64,000 nucleotides of DNA from Pseudomonas putida (GTDB taxonomy: Bacteria; Pseudomonadota; Gammaproteobacteria; Pseudomonadales; Pseudomonadaceae). The first letter of the stretch is position 1, and every line of letters starts with the position of its first letter. The DNA is taken from contig NZ_CP039371.1 in NCBI RefSeq assembly GCF_005080685.1, forward strand, positions 1,612,001 through 1,676,000. Reading direction: 5' to 3'. The notes under the pieces were generated by a model that searched no databases, had not been told where the DNA came from, and saw only the letters and a program-made list of their open reading frames with translations. Below are positions 21,623 to 26,833 of this stretch, in pieces. The translations under genes were made by a program, and so were the position numbers.

Positions 21623-21648
21623 TTGGCCTGTTGCCTATAGCGGAAGGA

Positions 21649-21678
21649 GGGCCGGCATTTTGAATGCCGGCCCTTTTT
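21649..21678 (+). terminator. Rho-independent terminator of pyrF
   Basis: GGGCCGGCATT and its exact complement are separated by a 3-base loop and followed by TTTTT. It lies 26 nt after the pyrF stop. Confidence 0.92.
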
Positions 21679-21690
21679 CGTGGTGTGTTC

Positions 21691-21715
21691 ATCGCCGGCA
21701 AGCCGGCTCCTACAT
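21691..21715. repeat. Single REP-like element (GCCGGCAAGCCGGC core)
   Basis: ATCGCCGGCAAGCCGGCTCC followed by TACAT, the palindromic core of one P. putida REP subtype. It has no inverted partner nearby and is the first REP met when moving from the O-antigen side. Confidence 0.7.
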
Positions 21716-21756
21716 CCGAAAATTTAGCCCTCTGATTGGCAACGGCTCGAAGCGGA

Positions 21757-22008
21757 TCATTCAGCGCAGTTGAAGCCGATCTCCATATCGTTGATCAGTG
21801 CCTTGGCCATGGCGCTGAGGATGCGCGCTGCACTGCCGGCGATCCGGTTGCTTTCCATTTCGGCCTCTTCGGCGAGGTGCTCGATGCAACCGAGCAGGGC
21901 AGAGAGTTCGGAGAAGGCATGGTCGAGGGGAATGCCTGGGCGGATGGCATATAGCCCTGAGAATGTCGTCTGGCCTGCGGTCGTGTGAGCACCGAGCGTG
22001 GTTTTCAT
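21757..22008 (-). CDS. DUF3077-family protein
   Basis: An 83-aa protein with a small N-terminal segment (TLGAHTTAGQTTFSGLYAI), then predicted helices (HAFSELSALLGCIEHLAEEA and the following RILSAMAKALINDMEIG). This is the usual layout of DUF3077 proteins, which are common and multi-copy in P. putida-group genomes. The ATG overlaps the upstream stop (ATGA), so translation is coupled to the DUF6124 gene. Function unknown; the leader upstream suggests post-transcriptional control. Confidence 0.8.
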   Translation of the reverse strand: MKTTLGAHTTAGQTTFSGLYAIRPGIPLDHAFSELSALLGCIEHLAEEAEMESNRIAGSAARILSAMAKALINDMEIGFNCAE

Positions 22009-22259
22009 CGCGCACGCTCCAGAGCCGTTAGGTGATCGAAGACCGCGGCCAGCAGGTCGGTAGACATTGCCATTTCGTCGAGGGCGAAGTTTGCCTGTTC
22101 CTCGGATTGCGCGTTCAAGTACTTGTCACTGGCTTTGGTGAAGCTTTCCATGAGCCTGGTTGCGCAGAATATGGCATCTTCGCGGGGAACGCGGTGGGGA
22201 AGTGTGTAAGTGGAGGAGGGGTGATCGGTTGGTGGGTCGGGGACGATTTTCTTTGTCAT
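22005..22259 (-). CDS. DUF6124-family protein
   Basis: An 84-aa soluble protein starting MTKKIVPDPP, with a Pro-rich head and helical body (DAIFCATRLMESFTKASDKY and later MSTDLLAAVFDHLTALERAR). It resembles DUF6124 proteins, regularly paired with DUF3077 in Pseudomonas. The Shine-Dalgarno AAGGA (minus strand, about 22266-22270) lies inside an inverted repeat of the leader. It is the first gene of the two-gene unit. Function unknown. Confidence 0.75.
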   Translation of the reverse strand: MTKKIVPDPPTDHPSSTYTLPHRVPREDAIFCATRLMESFTKASDKYLNAQSEEQANFALDEMAMSTDLLAAVFDHLTALERAR

Positions 22260-22261
22260 GG

Positions 22262-22437
22262 TGTGGGTCCTTATTCGCTGAAGTTTCCGACACCCAGACC
22301 TTTCTCACGGATTTAGGTGGCAGCCGCACACGGGGTGAGAAACCGAGCGAATAAGGAAACTCGGCCAGACCGAAGTCTGCCCGTGTACGGCCACCATCAC
22401 AGCGTCCACTTATTCGTCGTCAGGTTCTCACACCCGG
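22262..22437 (-). promoter_or_regulatory. Structured leader with three copies each of two complementary motifs
   Basis: On the minus strand, AGCGAATAAGG covers the Shine-Dalgarno (22269-22279). Its perfect 11-base complement CCTTATTCGCT lies upstream (22346-22356), and a further sense copy ACGAATAAG lies at 22409-22417. A second motif does the same: GTGAGAAA (22301-22308), its complement TTTCTCAC (22335-22342) and an upstream TGAGAACC (22423-22430). The central segment can pair either upstream or downstream, so two exclusive folds are possible, one hiding the ribosome site. This is inferred from sequence only; it is reminiscent of C4-type antisense control. Confidence 0.6.
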
Positions 22438-22598
22438 TCACCTCTAAATGGCGACCTAGGAACGTTATTCCTGGGGTACTGGCCCGACAACAGTGAAACT
22501 TCAGCGGTGCGCGTAGGATAGTTCCGAAGCAGCTTCGTTTTGAAGCAAGTGGTTTCAGGTTCGGAAAAGTCTTACGGGTAGGCCTGCGGTTTTTAGCG

Positions 22599-23462
22599 TT
22601 ATCCGTGAGTGTTCAGGCCCCCGCGCGTAAAAATCTCGCGTCGCTCCAAACGGCCAATATCCTCATGCTTGGCTATCTCATAGACCCAATCGAAATGGCT
22701 ACGCTCCACCTCAGGAAAGTACTTGGCAAGTGCGCATTCCACAGCAGCATCGTAATCAGCTTCAGTAATGTACCGATAGATCTCCCGACGATAGAAAAAG
22801 CCGCACTGGAACCCCAGTGTTTCATTCAGATAGTGGGTCGGCTCAGAAAAGCTGTTTTCAAGATCGATGGCTTGAGCCCTGCCTTTCTCGGGAAGCATCA
22901 CATTGGCGGCCCACAGATCCATATGGGTGATGCCCTGGCCGTGCAAGGCATACAGCAATTCGAAGGTGGATTCGATGACGTGATGCACGGTCTGAGGGTT
23001 TTCTCGCACCTTCGTCAGCCCGTCCACGTGATTGGCCAGTAACTCGGTGATGAGGAACACATCCTGGATCAGGCCGAGTTTCGAGCGCCGGTAGCCGAAG
23101 CCTTTGAGCTTGGGGACCGGTGCTCCGCGCAGGGCAGCCTCGCGGGTATTGATAAGCTCTTCAAGCGACCAGTCATACATCCCGTTACGCTTTGGGTTGC
23201 CACGTTGCACCCGCCATTTCTTTCTCAGCGAATCAAGCTTCTCGCGTTTGGTGAACAGCTTGCTCACAGCGCAATCCAGGGGAGCGCTGACACGTTTGGC
23301 CGTTGGCTTCTGCTCGATCAGATACTCGAAAGCCTCACGAGTGTGTGGCTCGATCGGAGATTGGAAATGCAGCGTGGTGTCGCGGTGCTGCAGGGTGTGC
23401 GGGTATTCGTCATGCCAGAACTGTGTACTACCTACCACCACGTATCGTCCCTGTAGTGTCAA
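22599..23462 (-). CDS. WaaP/InaA-like lipopolysaccharide kinase family protein
   Basis: A protein-kinase-like fold of 287 aa. The catalytic loop is THMDLWAANVML (His-x-Asp and Asn) and the metal-binding segment is AIDLENS, both typical of the WaaP/Kdo kinase and InaA group that phosphorylates LPS core sugars. The start is uncertain: TTG 23462 gives 287 aa, while GTG 23441 has AGGGA just upstream. It heads away from the GT25 gene and lies with other envelope glycan genes. The target sugar is not known. Confidence 0.75.
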   Translation of the reverse strand: MTLQGRYVVVGSTQFWHDEYPHTLQHRDTTLHFQSPIEPHTREAFEYLIEQKPTAKRVSAPLDCAVSKLFTKREKLDSLRKKWRVQRGNPKRNGMYDWSLEELINTREAALRGAPVPKLKGFGYRRSKLGLIQDVFLITELLANHVDGLTKVRENPQTVHHVIESTFELLYALHGQGITHMDLWAANVMLPEKGRAQAIDLENSFSEPTHYLNETLGFQCGFFYRREIYRYITEADYDAAVECALAKYFPEVERSHFDWVYEIAKHEDIGRLERREIFTRGGLNTHG

Positions 23463-23835
23463 ATGGCCATTTAAGCAAGGCGGATGGTACGGCTTTTCAC
23501 ATATTTTTCACAAGCGGTCAAAGGTGGGCCGGTTGGGTTGCAGCACGTATCTGCTGGGTTGCCAGGTCTATTCAGCACGGCTTGGCGAGAAACGACGCGC
23601 TTGCTGTGCACCATCGCGTCTTTCCCGCTTCGGAGTTCGATGTCACGCGACGTTACACATGGACGGGCTCGATGCCGGTGACGGAGCGGTGCAGTGATGG
23701 CAAAATGCACCTCATTTTGGGCTCCCTTGGGGATGAAGGCGGGCCTGATTTAGGAGTTAGCAGTGAATGTCACAGGCAAGCGCCGCTAGTCGAGTAGCTT
23801 ACGATTAAGCCTATTTCTGCAGTTGCTATTGTTGG
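23463..23835. other. 373-nt gap between kinase-like and GT25 genes
   Basis: The divergent starts place both promoters here. I find no RNA gene, REP element or credible coding frame. AT-rich TTTTCACATATTTTTCAC at about 23492-23509 could belong to the kinase promoter. Nothing else is recognised. Confidence 0.4.
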
Positions 23836-24510
23836 ATGGTAGTAAGAGAGAAGATTTTGTCTAAAGTAAGATTTGAGGTTGATTCGGTTCACTGCATTTC
23901 ACTTGCTAGCAGAGAAGACCGCCGCAAGTTATTTACCGACAATGTTGCCGCACTGATTGAGAATGATGTGTTCTTTCACATTGTGGATAAGAACAGTGAT
24001 CCAAAGCGTGGATGCTACGAGTCTCATCAGCAGCTCGCCCAGTTCGCATTAGACAATGGCTTGAGCAGTATCTTGATTTTTGAAGATGACGTGATGCCCT
24101 ATGAGATAAAGGCGCTACGCGTTCGTTGGATCAATCGGTTCTTGCGCACGCGCAAGTTCGAAGCGCTGCACTTGGGGTATTCGATGGGCCGGACCTGGTT
24201 GACGTGGTTCCCGTTCATCGCGCGCGGAAGAGTAGTCGCACTGCATGCTTACGTGCTTTCCCGTGAGGGCTGCAAGATTCTGGCTGAGACACCTTATGAC
24301 GGCACCCCGGTGGACGTCATGTTCAAGCATAGGATCAAGCAGCATTGCGTCTTCCCCATGATGTTTCGGCAATACGCCGGTTCCGTCACGAGTAGTGATC
24401 TTGAGCAAGTGGTGTGCAATGAAGATGCATGGTGGGAGCGTAACTGGCAAAAACATATACGCTCTCCGCTGAAAAACTTCTGGCGTACGATTTTTCGCTT
24501 GGGTTTCTGA
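23836..24510 (+). CDS. Glycosyltransferase family 25 (LPS biosynthesis type)
   Basis: A 224-aa cytoplasmic transferase with GT25 features: an early VHCISLASREDRR block, the acidic donor/metal motif IFEDDV, and the later LHAYVLSREGCKIL and DGTPVDVMF segments. GT25 enzymes add galactose-type sugars to LPS core or O-chains. ATG 23836 lacks a good ribosome site; TTG 23857, with GAGAG upstream, would give 217 aa. It stands alone on this strand between the kinase-like and pyruvyl transferase genes. Confidence 0.85.
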   Translation: MVVREKILSKVRFEVDSVHCISLASREDRRKLFTDNVAALIENDVFFHIVDKNSDPKRGCYESHQQLAQFALDNGLSSILIFEDDVMPYEIKALRVRWINRFLRTRKFEALHLGYSMGRTWLTWFPFIARGRVVALHAYVLSREGCKILAETPYDGTPVDVMFKHRIKQHCVFPMMFRQYAGSVTSSDLEQVVCNEDAWWERNWQKHIRSPLKNFWRTIFRLGF

Positions 24511-24556
24511 GGCGTGATGCCTGTTTAGCTAGGAGAGATAAAAGGCGCTTTGACCG

Positions 24557-24577
24557 CGGTGATGATCCATATCACCG
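24557..24577. terminator. Possible bidirectional terminator
   Basis: CGGTGAT and ATCACCG form a 7-base-pair hairpin with a 7-base loop, followed by a T-rich stretch on the + strand. It lies between the convergent GT25 and pyruvyl transferase genes. The stem is modest. Confidence 0.4.
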
Positions 24578-24605
24578 GCTTACTTCTTTAGAACCTGCGT
24601 AGGTC

Positions 24606-25406
24606 TTAGAGGGCCGGGAAGGCTTTGACCAAAGCCTGTTTCATGTCATCGAGACCTGGCCGCTCATATTGCTGCAGTGCTTCCTCGATCGACTTCGACG
24701 GATTGAGGAGCAGTTCCTCGGTGGTCAGAGGGGCCGGATCCTGAAGCCCAAAGCTACTGTAGTAATCCTGGAACTTGTACTCCCAGCCAGCGCAGCGGCC
24801 CGTGGTCACCCATTGGTTTGGTACACCGTACGAATCCGCAACGATCAACCCGTGCAAGCTGGTCGACAGCACGAAGTCGCAGGAGGCAATTTCGCTCAAG
24901 ACTTCCTTGACCGGGGAGAACACGTCGATCACCTTCGCGCCTGGAATCTGACTGAGTAGTTCACTCACAACTGTGCTGTCCCGATGACGAATATGGGGAA
25001 TGACGCCAACACGTATGCGCTTGGTTTGCGGTTTGTTCACCAGTGAAGAAGCCAGCAGTCCTGGGTCGCCCAGTACAGGCTTGGCTTTCGCGCCCTTGAT
25101 CTGATCCAGGCACTTCTGGCCGCGGACGGCATGGAAGTAGTGACGGCTAGAGAACTCGTCTTTTGGGTCGCCGGAACCAGTGCCCCAGATATGCAGCTTG
25201 CGCGGTAAGCCCCAGCTTTTTGCCTTCTTCTCGCGGTTCAGAACGCTGCCGATGGCAATCATGTCGGCACGGCGGATGGAGGCGTGCTGGACCTTCCGGC
25301 CCGAGACGAATTCGACAACGTCTGCGGACAGGTAATCACCGAAGTTTTGTTGGGCAGCATTATCGCGGCCGCTGCCACGGCACCAGAAAAGTCTGATTGG
25401 CTTCAT
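24606..25406 (-). CDS. Polysaccharide pyruvyl transferase family protein
   Basis: A 266-aa protein with the family N-terminus (QNFGDYLSADVVEFVSG), a central GDPGLLAS and the conserved LSTSLHGLIVADSYGVP block near residue 180. Members transfer pyruvate from PEP to sugar hydroxyls, adding acidic ketals to surface glycans; some are glycosyltransferase-like. AAGGAAA upstream of the ATG is well placed. Its neighbours point to LPS or exopolysaccharide decoration; the acceptor is unknown. Confidence 0.85.
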   Translation of the reverse strand: MKPIRLFWCRGSGRDNAAQQNFGDYLSADVVEFVSGRKVQHASIRRADMIAIGSVLNREKKAKSWGLPRKLHIWGTGSGDPKDEFSSRHYFHAVRGQKCLDQIKGAKAKPVLGDPGLLASSLVNKPQTKRIRVGVIPHIRHRDSTVVSELLSQIPGAKVIDVFSPVKEVLSEIASCDFVLSTSLHGLIVADSYGVPNQWVTTGRCAGWEYKFQDYYSSFGLQDPAPLTTEELLLNPSKSIEEALQQYERPGLDDMKQALVKAFPAL

Positions 25407-25696
25407 TGTTGTGATTTCCTTCAGAGGGGCGGCGCACTAGGCGCTTCGTTGCGGTGGAATCTCGTACGGCGGCTCGGCTTCCGCATTGAGAGCGGGGAGC
25501 GAATTCAGTTGATGTCAATGAGCCGTTAGCAGGGGCTAGGGCGTGCATCTTACTGATTATTGGGAGGAAAGTAAGTAGCCGCAGGTCACTTGTCGGTGAG
25601 GATACTACTTTGGCAATATTTCAGAGATTGGAACTTGAGCTGGTGGATTAGTGCGCTAGGCAATTTGCGCTGTCTGGCACGGGCTGTACGCCCGTG

Positions 25697-25722
25697 TTCG
25701 CGGGTGAACCCGCTCCTACAGG
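25697..25722. repeat. Single REP element, GCGGGTGAACCCGC core
   Basis: TTCGCGGGTGAACCCGCTCC followed by TACAGG; a P. putida REP with no inverted mate next to it. Confidence 0.75.
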
Positions 25723-25785
25723 ATTCGGCGGCGTGTTTTCCGCATGATGATCCTGCAGGGGCGAGGTTTTCGGGGCTTTAGATCT

Positions 25786-25830
25786 GGGGCTGCTGCGCAG
25801 CCCTTCGCGGCGCAAGGCCGCTCCCACACG
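25786..25830. repeat. Single REP element, GCGGCGCAAGGCCGC core
   Basis: A GGGGCTGC..GCAGCCC stem runs into TTCGCGGCGCAAGGCCGCTC followed by CCACACGG, a second REP subtype adjoining the reductase stop codon. Confidence 0.7.
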
Positions 25831-25831
25831 G

Positions 25832-26833
25832 TTAGACCTTCAGCACCAACTTGCCAAAATTCTCCCCACTAAACAGCTTCAACAACGTCTCCGGGAACGT
25901 TTCAAGCCCCTCCACCACATCCTCCCGGCTCTTCACCTGCCCACTCGCCAACCACCCAGCCATCTCCTGCGCCGCCTTCCCATACTCCTTGGCATGGTCC
26001 ATCACCACAAACCCTTCCATCCTTGCCCGATTCACCAGCAACGCCAGATAGTTAGCCGGCCCTTTCACCGCTTCCTTGTTGTTGTACTGACTGATCGCCC
26101 CGCAAATCACGATCCGCGCCTTGAAGTTAATCCGCGTCAGCACCGCATCCAGGATCTCGCCGCCCACGTTGTCGAAATACACGTCCACCCCCTTGGGGCA
26201 TTCACGCTTCAACCCGGCCAGCACATCCTCGGCCTTGTAATCGATCACCCCATCGAAGCCCAGCTCCTCCTTGAGGTACTGGCACTTCTCGGCGCCGCCA
26301 GCAATGCCCACCACATGGCAGCCCTTGATCTTGGCGATCTGCCCGACAATGCTGCCCACGGCACCGGCTGCACCGGAAATCACCACAGTTTCACCGGCCT
26401 TGGGCTGGCCGACTTCCAGCAGCGCGAAGTACGCGGTCATGCCGGTCATGCCCAGGGCCGATAGGTAGCGGGGCAGGGGGGCGAGCTTGGGATCGATCTT
26501 GTACAGGCCCTGGGGGGCGCCGGTGAAGTAGTCCTGCACGCCCAGCGGGCCGTTCACGTGGTCGCCTGGCTTGAAGTCCGGGTGCTTGGAGGCGACGACT
26601 TCGCCTACGCCCAGTGCGCGCATTACCTCGCCCAGGCCTACCGGCGGGATGTAGGACTTGCCTTCGTTCATCCAGCCGCGCATGGCCGGGTCCAGCGACA
26701 GGTACAGGTTGCGAACCTGGACCTGGCCTTCGGCAGGCTCGGCGACGGGGACGTTTTCGAAGGTGAAGTCGTCGCGGCGCACGGCACCGACGGGGCGTTT
26801 GCTGAGCAGGAAGCGGCGGTTGGTCTGGGTCAT
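25832..26833 (-). CDS. NADP-dependent oxidoreductase (CurA / prostaglandin-reductase-like MDR)
   Basis: A zinc-free medium-chain reductase of 333 aa that probably reduces alpha,beta-unsaturated carbonyls with NADPH. It has the group motif LSLDPAMRGWMNEG near residue 50, the cofactor motif VISGAAGAVGS near 155, and AGGAEKCQYLKEELGFDGVI further on. It starts at ATG 26833 and appears monocistronic. The physiological substrate is not known. Confidence 0.9.
   Translation of the reverse strand: MTQTNRRFLLSKRPVGAVRRDDFTFENVPVAEPAEGQVQVRNLYLSLDPAMRGWMNEGKSYIPPVGLGEVMRALGVGEVVASKHPDFKPGDHVNGPLGVQDYFTGAPQGLYKIDPKLAPLPRYLSALGMTGMTAYFALLEVGQPKAGETVVISGAAGAVGSIVGQIAKIKGCHVVGIAGGAEKCQYLKEELGFDGVIDYKAEDVLAGLKRECPKGVDVYFDNVGGEILDAVLTRINFKARIVICGAISQYNNKEAVKGPANYLALLVNRARMEGFVVMDHAKEYGKAAQEMAGWLASGQVKSREDVVEGLETFPETLLKLFSGENFGKLVLKV

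Follow-up and report, generated by a model that had tools for sequence, protein, structure and literature searches.

The minus strand of the window, the whole 64,000-nt stretch of Pseudomonas putida DNA analysed here, carries a leader ahead of two small open reading frames in which two motifs each occur three times, the central copy being the complement of the outer two. A first-pass annotation proposed that this central copy could pair with either partner, and that folds hiding and freeing the Shine-Dalgarno sequence would exclude each other, as in an RNA switch or a processed antisense RNA of the phage C4 type. We asked which of these the leader encodes, and what it is likely to control.

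C4 antisense RNA in the leader

We followed the suggestion to compare the leader with the Rfam C4 model. The segment at 22401-22313 (minus strand) matches the C4 antisense RNA family (RF01695), with its P1, P2 and P3 stems, at 71.5 bits against a cut-off of 45 and over model positions 1-87 of 87. Riboswitch families in Rfam gave no match in 22200-22600 at E up to 1. The leader segment is a C4 antisense RNA, a member of a family already named. Its stems alone are predicted to fold at -47.5 kcal/mol. In an alignment of the C4 stems fitted to the model, 96.5% of cells are paired, compared with at most 40.1% in slid controls, and both sides have changed in 22 of the 26 pairs (72 distinct rows), which is covariation within the C4 stems. 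The Rfam match, this stem covariation and the way in which loop and target change together from locus to locus (described below) directly support the suggested processed antisense RNA of C4 type.

The motif triples correspond to the a1b1, a'b' and a2b2 elements of the phage P1/P7 C4 system, and each was located on the minus strand where it had been placed, in the order a1-b1-b'-a'-a2-b2 along the RNA. Upstream of C4, a1 (GTGTGAGAACC, 22423-22433) contains the copy first noticed (TGAGAACC, 22430-22423) and b1 (CGAATAAG, 22416-22409) is an 8-nt match to the b2 sense. Within C4, the b' segment (CCTTATTCGCT, 22356-22346) forms the P3 loop in the predicted fold and is the perfect complement of b2, while the a' segment (GGTTTCTCAC, 22344-22335), which includes the previously noted TTTCTCAC (22342-22335), is complementary to both a1 and a2. 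Downstream lie a2 (GTGAGAAA, 22308-22301) and b2 (AGCGAATAAGG, 22279-22269), the latter overlapping the Shine-Dalgarno AAGGA at 22272-22268. The distance from b2 to b' is 77 nt, as described for the perfect complement upstream of the ribosome-binding motif, and the b'/b2 duplex is calculated at -18.2 kcal/mol. The further same-sense copy upstream is present at 22416-22409 only in part, as the 8 nt of b1. Given the order of the elements, the reported nesting of the second motif inside the first holds on the downstream side only (a inside b), and upstream b lies inside a. A candidate a1b1-like element, with hairpins displaying a1, lies at 22468-22417, where Rfam c4-a1b1 (RF03163) scores 22.6 bits (E 0.0014 for 401 bases), below its cut-off of 46.7. 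Exact complements separated by 60 nt or more in the 244-nt leader reach a length of 12 nt, as they also did in 1 of 1000 dinucleotide-preserving shuffles. The impression that no described RNA has this layout does not stand, since C4 and a1b1 are both Rfam families and the CI RNA of phage P4, with its seqA and seqC sites, is described in the available text of PMC4825925.

The minimum-energy fold of the whole leader retains a 17-pair C4 stem, with b' looped and a' unpaired. Because this predicted fold leaves C4 intact and both a' and b' free, a two-state cis riboswitch in the leader is unlikely, and the mutually exclusive folds give way to a single stable unit. We set the two-state riboswitch aside as the main reading, since C4 keeps its fold and matches a known antisense family. 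As C4 persists in the whole-leader fold, the a'b' pairing is probably better read as a loop-target contact, made in trans or between parts of a transcript.

Downstream genes and C4 copies in the genome and genus

The leader precedes ORF1 (22259-22005, minus strand; 84 aa, starting MTKKIVPDPP), whose N-terminus is conserved in 29 aligned homologues, and ORF2 (22008-21757, minus strand; 83 aa), whose ATG overlaps the ORF1 stop codon as ATGA. The pair had been annotated as DUF6124-DUF3077. ORF2 is indeed a DUF3077 protein (PF11275, 43.1 bits, cut-off 21). For ORF1, comparison with Pfam at 1e-3 returned nothing. ORF1 does not match DUF6124 (PF19619), a family that 2 of its 29 homologues match at 0.01 (best 0.0015) and that matches only two other places in the window's genome. 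The name DUF6124 was dropped for ORF1 for want of Pfam support. In profile comparisons the main part of ORF1 resembles DUF3077 (hhalign probability 84%) and the N-terminal part resembles DUF6124 proteins (92.7%, 43 columns), with no support for a relation between DUF6124 and DUF3077 (0.7%, from only 7 sequences chosen by eye). ORF1 would thus be at most a distant DUF6124 relative. A solved-structure search returned no convincing relative (best E 0.34). In the literature searched, which took in few subscription titles, DUF6124 was not found mentioned and a single paper mentions DUF3077. Its available text reports a furfural-tolerant evolved line of P. putida KT2440 in which an inserted base repairs a DUF3077 pseudogene (PMC9630843), a possible lead to function.

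The window's genome holds 30 C4 matches over the cut-off, with 150 of 2179 first-look candidates scored. DUF3077 likewise gives 30 matches (E up to 0.01), of which one is under the Pfam cut-off. Among these DUF3077 matches, 29 follow a same-strand C4 within 1 kb and all 30 do so within 2.2 kb; when placement was randomised 2000 times, the 1-kb count averaged 0.07 and never exceeded 2. Counted from the RNA, 25 of the 30 C4 copies have a DUF3077 match within 1 kb and five are without one nearby. At one locus (L017, genome 1943607-1943703) the target region downstream of C4 has been replaced, and no target start was found there.

We surveyed 40 Pseudomonas genomes, the window's own included. C4 was found in 36 of them at E up to 0.001, with 0-42 copies per genome, and these counts may be low because at most 82 candidates were scored in each. 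DUF3077 was found in 30 of the 40 genomes and DUF6124 in 32. The totals are 678 C4, 170 DUF3077 and 453 DUF6124, and the C4 count follows the sum of the two protein families with a Spearman coefficient of 0.91. For loci picked by DUF3077 alone (80 from named genomes, the best 80 of 298), we searched with a model derived from the 30 C4 RNAs in the window's genome. Of the 70 loci that had at least 500 nt of upstream DNA, 66 carry a same-strand C4 there; the other four (L082, L083, L102 and L104) have no C4 even at E up to 5. Thirty DUF6124 loci were also fetched. C4 lies upstream on the same strand in 15 of 17, and 6 of the remaining 13 hold a C4 somewhere in the locus, counting either orientation.

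In the window the unit adjoins pyrF, and C4 was found within the 1.5-kb flanks of 0 of 18 other Pseudomonas pyrF loci. In four relatives pyrF is followed within ~100 bp by the oxidoreductase gene found at 25832-26833 of the window, so that ~4.2 kb, including the C4 unit, is extra here. Other genes in this block (21623-25837), between pyrF and the oxidoreductase gene, encode a WaaP-like kinase (22599-23462), a family-25 glycosyltransferase (23836-24510) and a product (ORF 24606-25406) that by eye resembles polysaccharide pyruvyl transferase. REP-like repeats, likewise seen by eye, lie near both of its ends.

Pairing specificity and divergence of the loop addresses

Comparison of the C4 RNAs within the window's genome reveals three a' classes (14, 8 and 5 members), which cover 27 of the 29 C4 RNAs with an identified target, and 29 distinct b' loops among the same 29. 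We calculated pairing energies as gapless or simple duplexes with the cost of structure left out; on this basis own b'/b2 pairs average -15.5 kcal/mol versus -8.4 kcal/mol for other targets. When a and b energies are summed, own target is ranked first by 22 of the 29 C4 RNAs and seven prefer the target of another locus, while b alone places own target first in only 16 of 29. The window C4 pairs best with its own target (-28.5 summed, next -23.2). Over 90 loci (14 of 104 were left out because no start was recognised) the own b'/b2 energy is -15.2 versus -8.2 kcal/mol for others (permutation mean -8.29, sd 0.26), and b1 likewise favours its own b' over those of other loci (-13.2 vs -9.7). A second genome, G019, has 42 distinct b' loops in 42 C4 RNAs and an own pairing of -13.8 versus -7.7 (41 of the 42 loci), and only 5 of its 42 a' segments fall into the three classes of the window's genome. 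We propose that a' serves as an address shared by a class, and the b' loop as one private to each locus.

Loci with related genes indicate how these addresses may change. Where homologous ORF1 loci differ in b', pairing within a locus is stronger than pairing across loci for 140 of 145 pairs, a count in which pairs overlap and are not independent events. Two loci 7 kb apart in the window's genome (L006 and L012) are 99-100% identical from the start codon onward and alike in 125 of 142 in the distal upstream DNA, with identities of 39/60 in a1b1, 71/91 in C4 and 24/46 in a2b2. Their alignment shows by eye a REP-like repeat between ORF1 and DUF3077 in both. In the G019 tandem copies L212 and L213, two differences in b' are both matched in b2, and b1 has shifted in the same direction. 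For 20 pairs of G019 loci whose genes are at least 88% identical, identity averages 0.92 in coding sequence, 0.43 in a1b1, 0.74 in C4 and 0.60 in a2b2. The distal upstream DNA of these pairs averages 0.64 and is divergent in many, so part of the leader divergence reflects the usual decay of homology beyond the coding sequences. Near-identical genes with different, internally matched addresses suggest selection for separately controlled, self-silencing cassettes.

Phage relatives, alternative readings and proposed mechanism

In the P1/P7 system, according to the accessible text of PMC5320573, RNase P cuts C4 from a longer transcript, the b' loop covers the ribosome-binding site and specificity comes from a'. 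The leader described here resembles P1/P7 C4 (RF01695) in its stems, in an a'b' complementary to an upstream a1b1 and to an a2b2 over the ribosome-binding site, and in a short first gene followed by a second (P1 details from the accessible parts of PMC5320573 and PMC8201110). Unlike P1/P7, the units are chromosomal and many-copy, their targets are ORF1, DUF3077 and DUF6124 instead of icd and ant, and no prophage repressor system was identified beside the window unit. The phage immI operon of P1/P7 was rejected as an identity for the locus, where ORF1 and DUF3077 lie downstream and the DUF3077 protein has no match in the phage collection. IsrK belongs to the same Rfam neighbourhood as C4. This small RNA arises from the antirepressor operon leader of the Gifsy-1 prophage and controls a small upstream ORF but, unlike the RNAs here, it activates expression (of anrP) and comes from a single prophage locus (available text of PMC4825925). 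From the same source, the CI RNA of satellite phage P4 is a processed antisense RNA that pairs with seqA upstream and seqC downstream and stops transcription; complementary sites on both sides of the antisense RNA are shared with our leader, and the P4 RNA acts through transcription termination in a replication operon (PMC4825925). Acinetobacter baumannii has chromosomal C4-like RNAs whose processing has been shown, and its Group 1 sRNAs are similarly many on one chromosome with a variable a' region; the accessible part of that report names no adjacent target gene, whereas here each has its own adjacent target and a private b' (PMC5320573).

Beyond the genus, we searched 232 genomes across the class with strict filters and only 18 candidates scored per genome; C4 turned up in 19 of them, counting the window's own. 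Six downstream proteins were chosen by eye from 18 of these class-wide C4 loci, and five score over cut-off for a domain of phage antirepression or replication (AntA, Bro-N, Phage_pRha, VapE-like and NrS-1 polymerase). With phage-type genes downstream elsewhere in the class, the chromosomal, DUF-linked form of C4 differs from the phage or satellite form. By eye, a hairpin with a T run between a1b1 and C4 is present in many of these phage or satellite C4 loci; in the window's genome the leaders of L001 and L002 have one and the other 28 do not. The window DUF3077 protein has no tblastn match in the phage collection, and the L022 copy has one plasmid match. DUF3077 relatives were found on 17 viral contigs, six of which have C4, and since they mostly lie near a contig end these relatives may be host flanks. 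A phage origin of DUF3077 itself is unsupported.

Could the C4 RNAs chiefly guard against incoming C4-controlled phages or satellites, with the downstream genes secondary? This is one of two options proposed for A. baumannii in the accessible text of PMC5320573, and a' classes found here also occur in phage-type C4 (L162 and L173). However, the 15 viral contigs that match the a2-b2 address pattern of the window have no C4 in the DNA examined, and we took these matches as chance; together with private, matched targets directly downstream of C4, this makes the guard reading improbable. We give still less weight to a cis RNA switch, in which the leader would flip between a hidden and a freed Shine-Dalgarno on a ligand, temperature or ribosome position. 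Although a1b1 and a2b2 compete for one a'b' and C4 could bind its own leader in cis, the 17-pair stem is kept with b' looped and a' unpaired, the conserved part matches a known antisense RNA and no aptamer, and a shared ligand would not need a b' private to each locus; we consider such a switch very improbable. That the units are remnants of prophages or satellites, immunity regions in decay that no longer serve a function, as C4 ahead of phage genes across the class (AntA, Rha, Bro-N, VapE-like and NrS-1 polymerase domains) and the lost target of L017 might suggest, is scarcely credible given compensatory change that keeps pairing in 90 loci and a second genome, and a window DUF3077 protein unmatched in the phage collection.

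We prefer, and hold to be very probably correct, a reading in which the cassette silences itself through an antisense RNA of C4 type. The sequence directly shows the C4 fold, the complementary segments, the linkage to the genes and the cognate pairing with its co-variation. A candidate promoter, TTGTCG (22490-22485) and TAACGT (22467-22462) with a 17-nt spacer, lies at 22490-22462 on the minus strand, and its pattern recurs in other leaders: 78 of 104 C4 leaders contain TTGnnn-N16-18-TAnnnT, in most cases 80-99 nt ahead of C4, compared with 4.5% of shuffles. The first-pass annotation had recognised that transcription starting downstream of 22346 would leave the complement out of the mRNA. The candidate promoter makes such a start unlikely, although a strict sigma-70 scan found no site in the leader region.

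We propose that a single transcript begins near 22455 and spans a1b1, C4, a2b2, ORF1 and DUF3077, and that a short, stable C4 RNA is released from it, probably through RNase P cleavage like that in P1. C4 would bind a2b2 of new transcripts through a' and b' and so hide the ORF1 Shine-Dalgarno; because the genes overlap by ATGA, the block on ORF1 would silence DUF3077 too, and both would be shut off. Pairing of C4 with a1b1 may also end transcription early, as in phage P4. We infer processing, repression and termination, as well as a state that relieves repression, and the layout shared with P1/P7 and P4 makes repression by C4 the likely mode. With a' as class address and b' as private address, the ~30 cassettes of a genome would be silenced mostly one by one.

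More tentatively, as an idea that we find attractive but would not yet favour, Pseudomonas chromosomes may store up to ~42 small-protein cassettes under C4 silencing, a bank comparable to a set of heteroimmunity or incompatibility groups in which a cassette silences only itself and newcomers of the same address. After duplication or gene conversion the address block (b1, b' and b2) would be replaced or driven apart, and the copies would regain independent control. If so, a cassette arriving with an address new to the cell would stay on until enough of its own C4 had accumulated, giving a single pulse of the small proteins on entry.

The C4 family is known, and what seems new is its many-copy, privately addressed chromosomal setting, of which we found no account in the literature searched, a set with few subscription papers. 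Within that same literature, the C4 linkage provides the first regulatory context for DUF3077 and DUF6124. Dozens of separately addressed C4 RNAs per cell would amount to a natural, near-orthogonal set of antisense regulators, and the cassettes allow the evolution of RNA-control specificity after duplication to be tested. Thus C4, known mainly as a phage immunity RNA, appears in Pseudomonas to be a genus-wide chromosomal control system.
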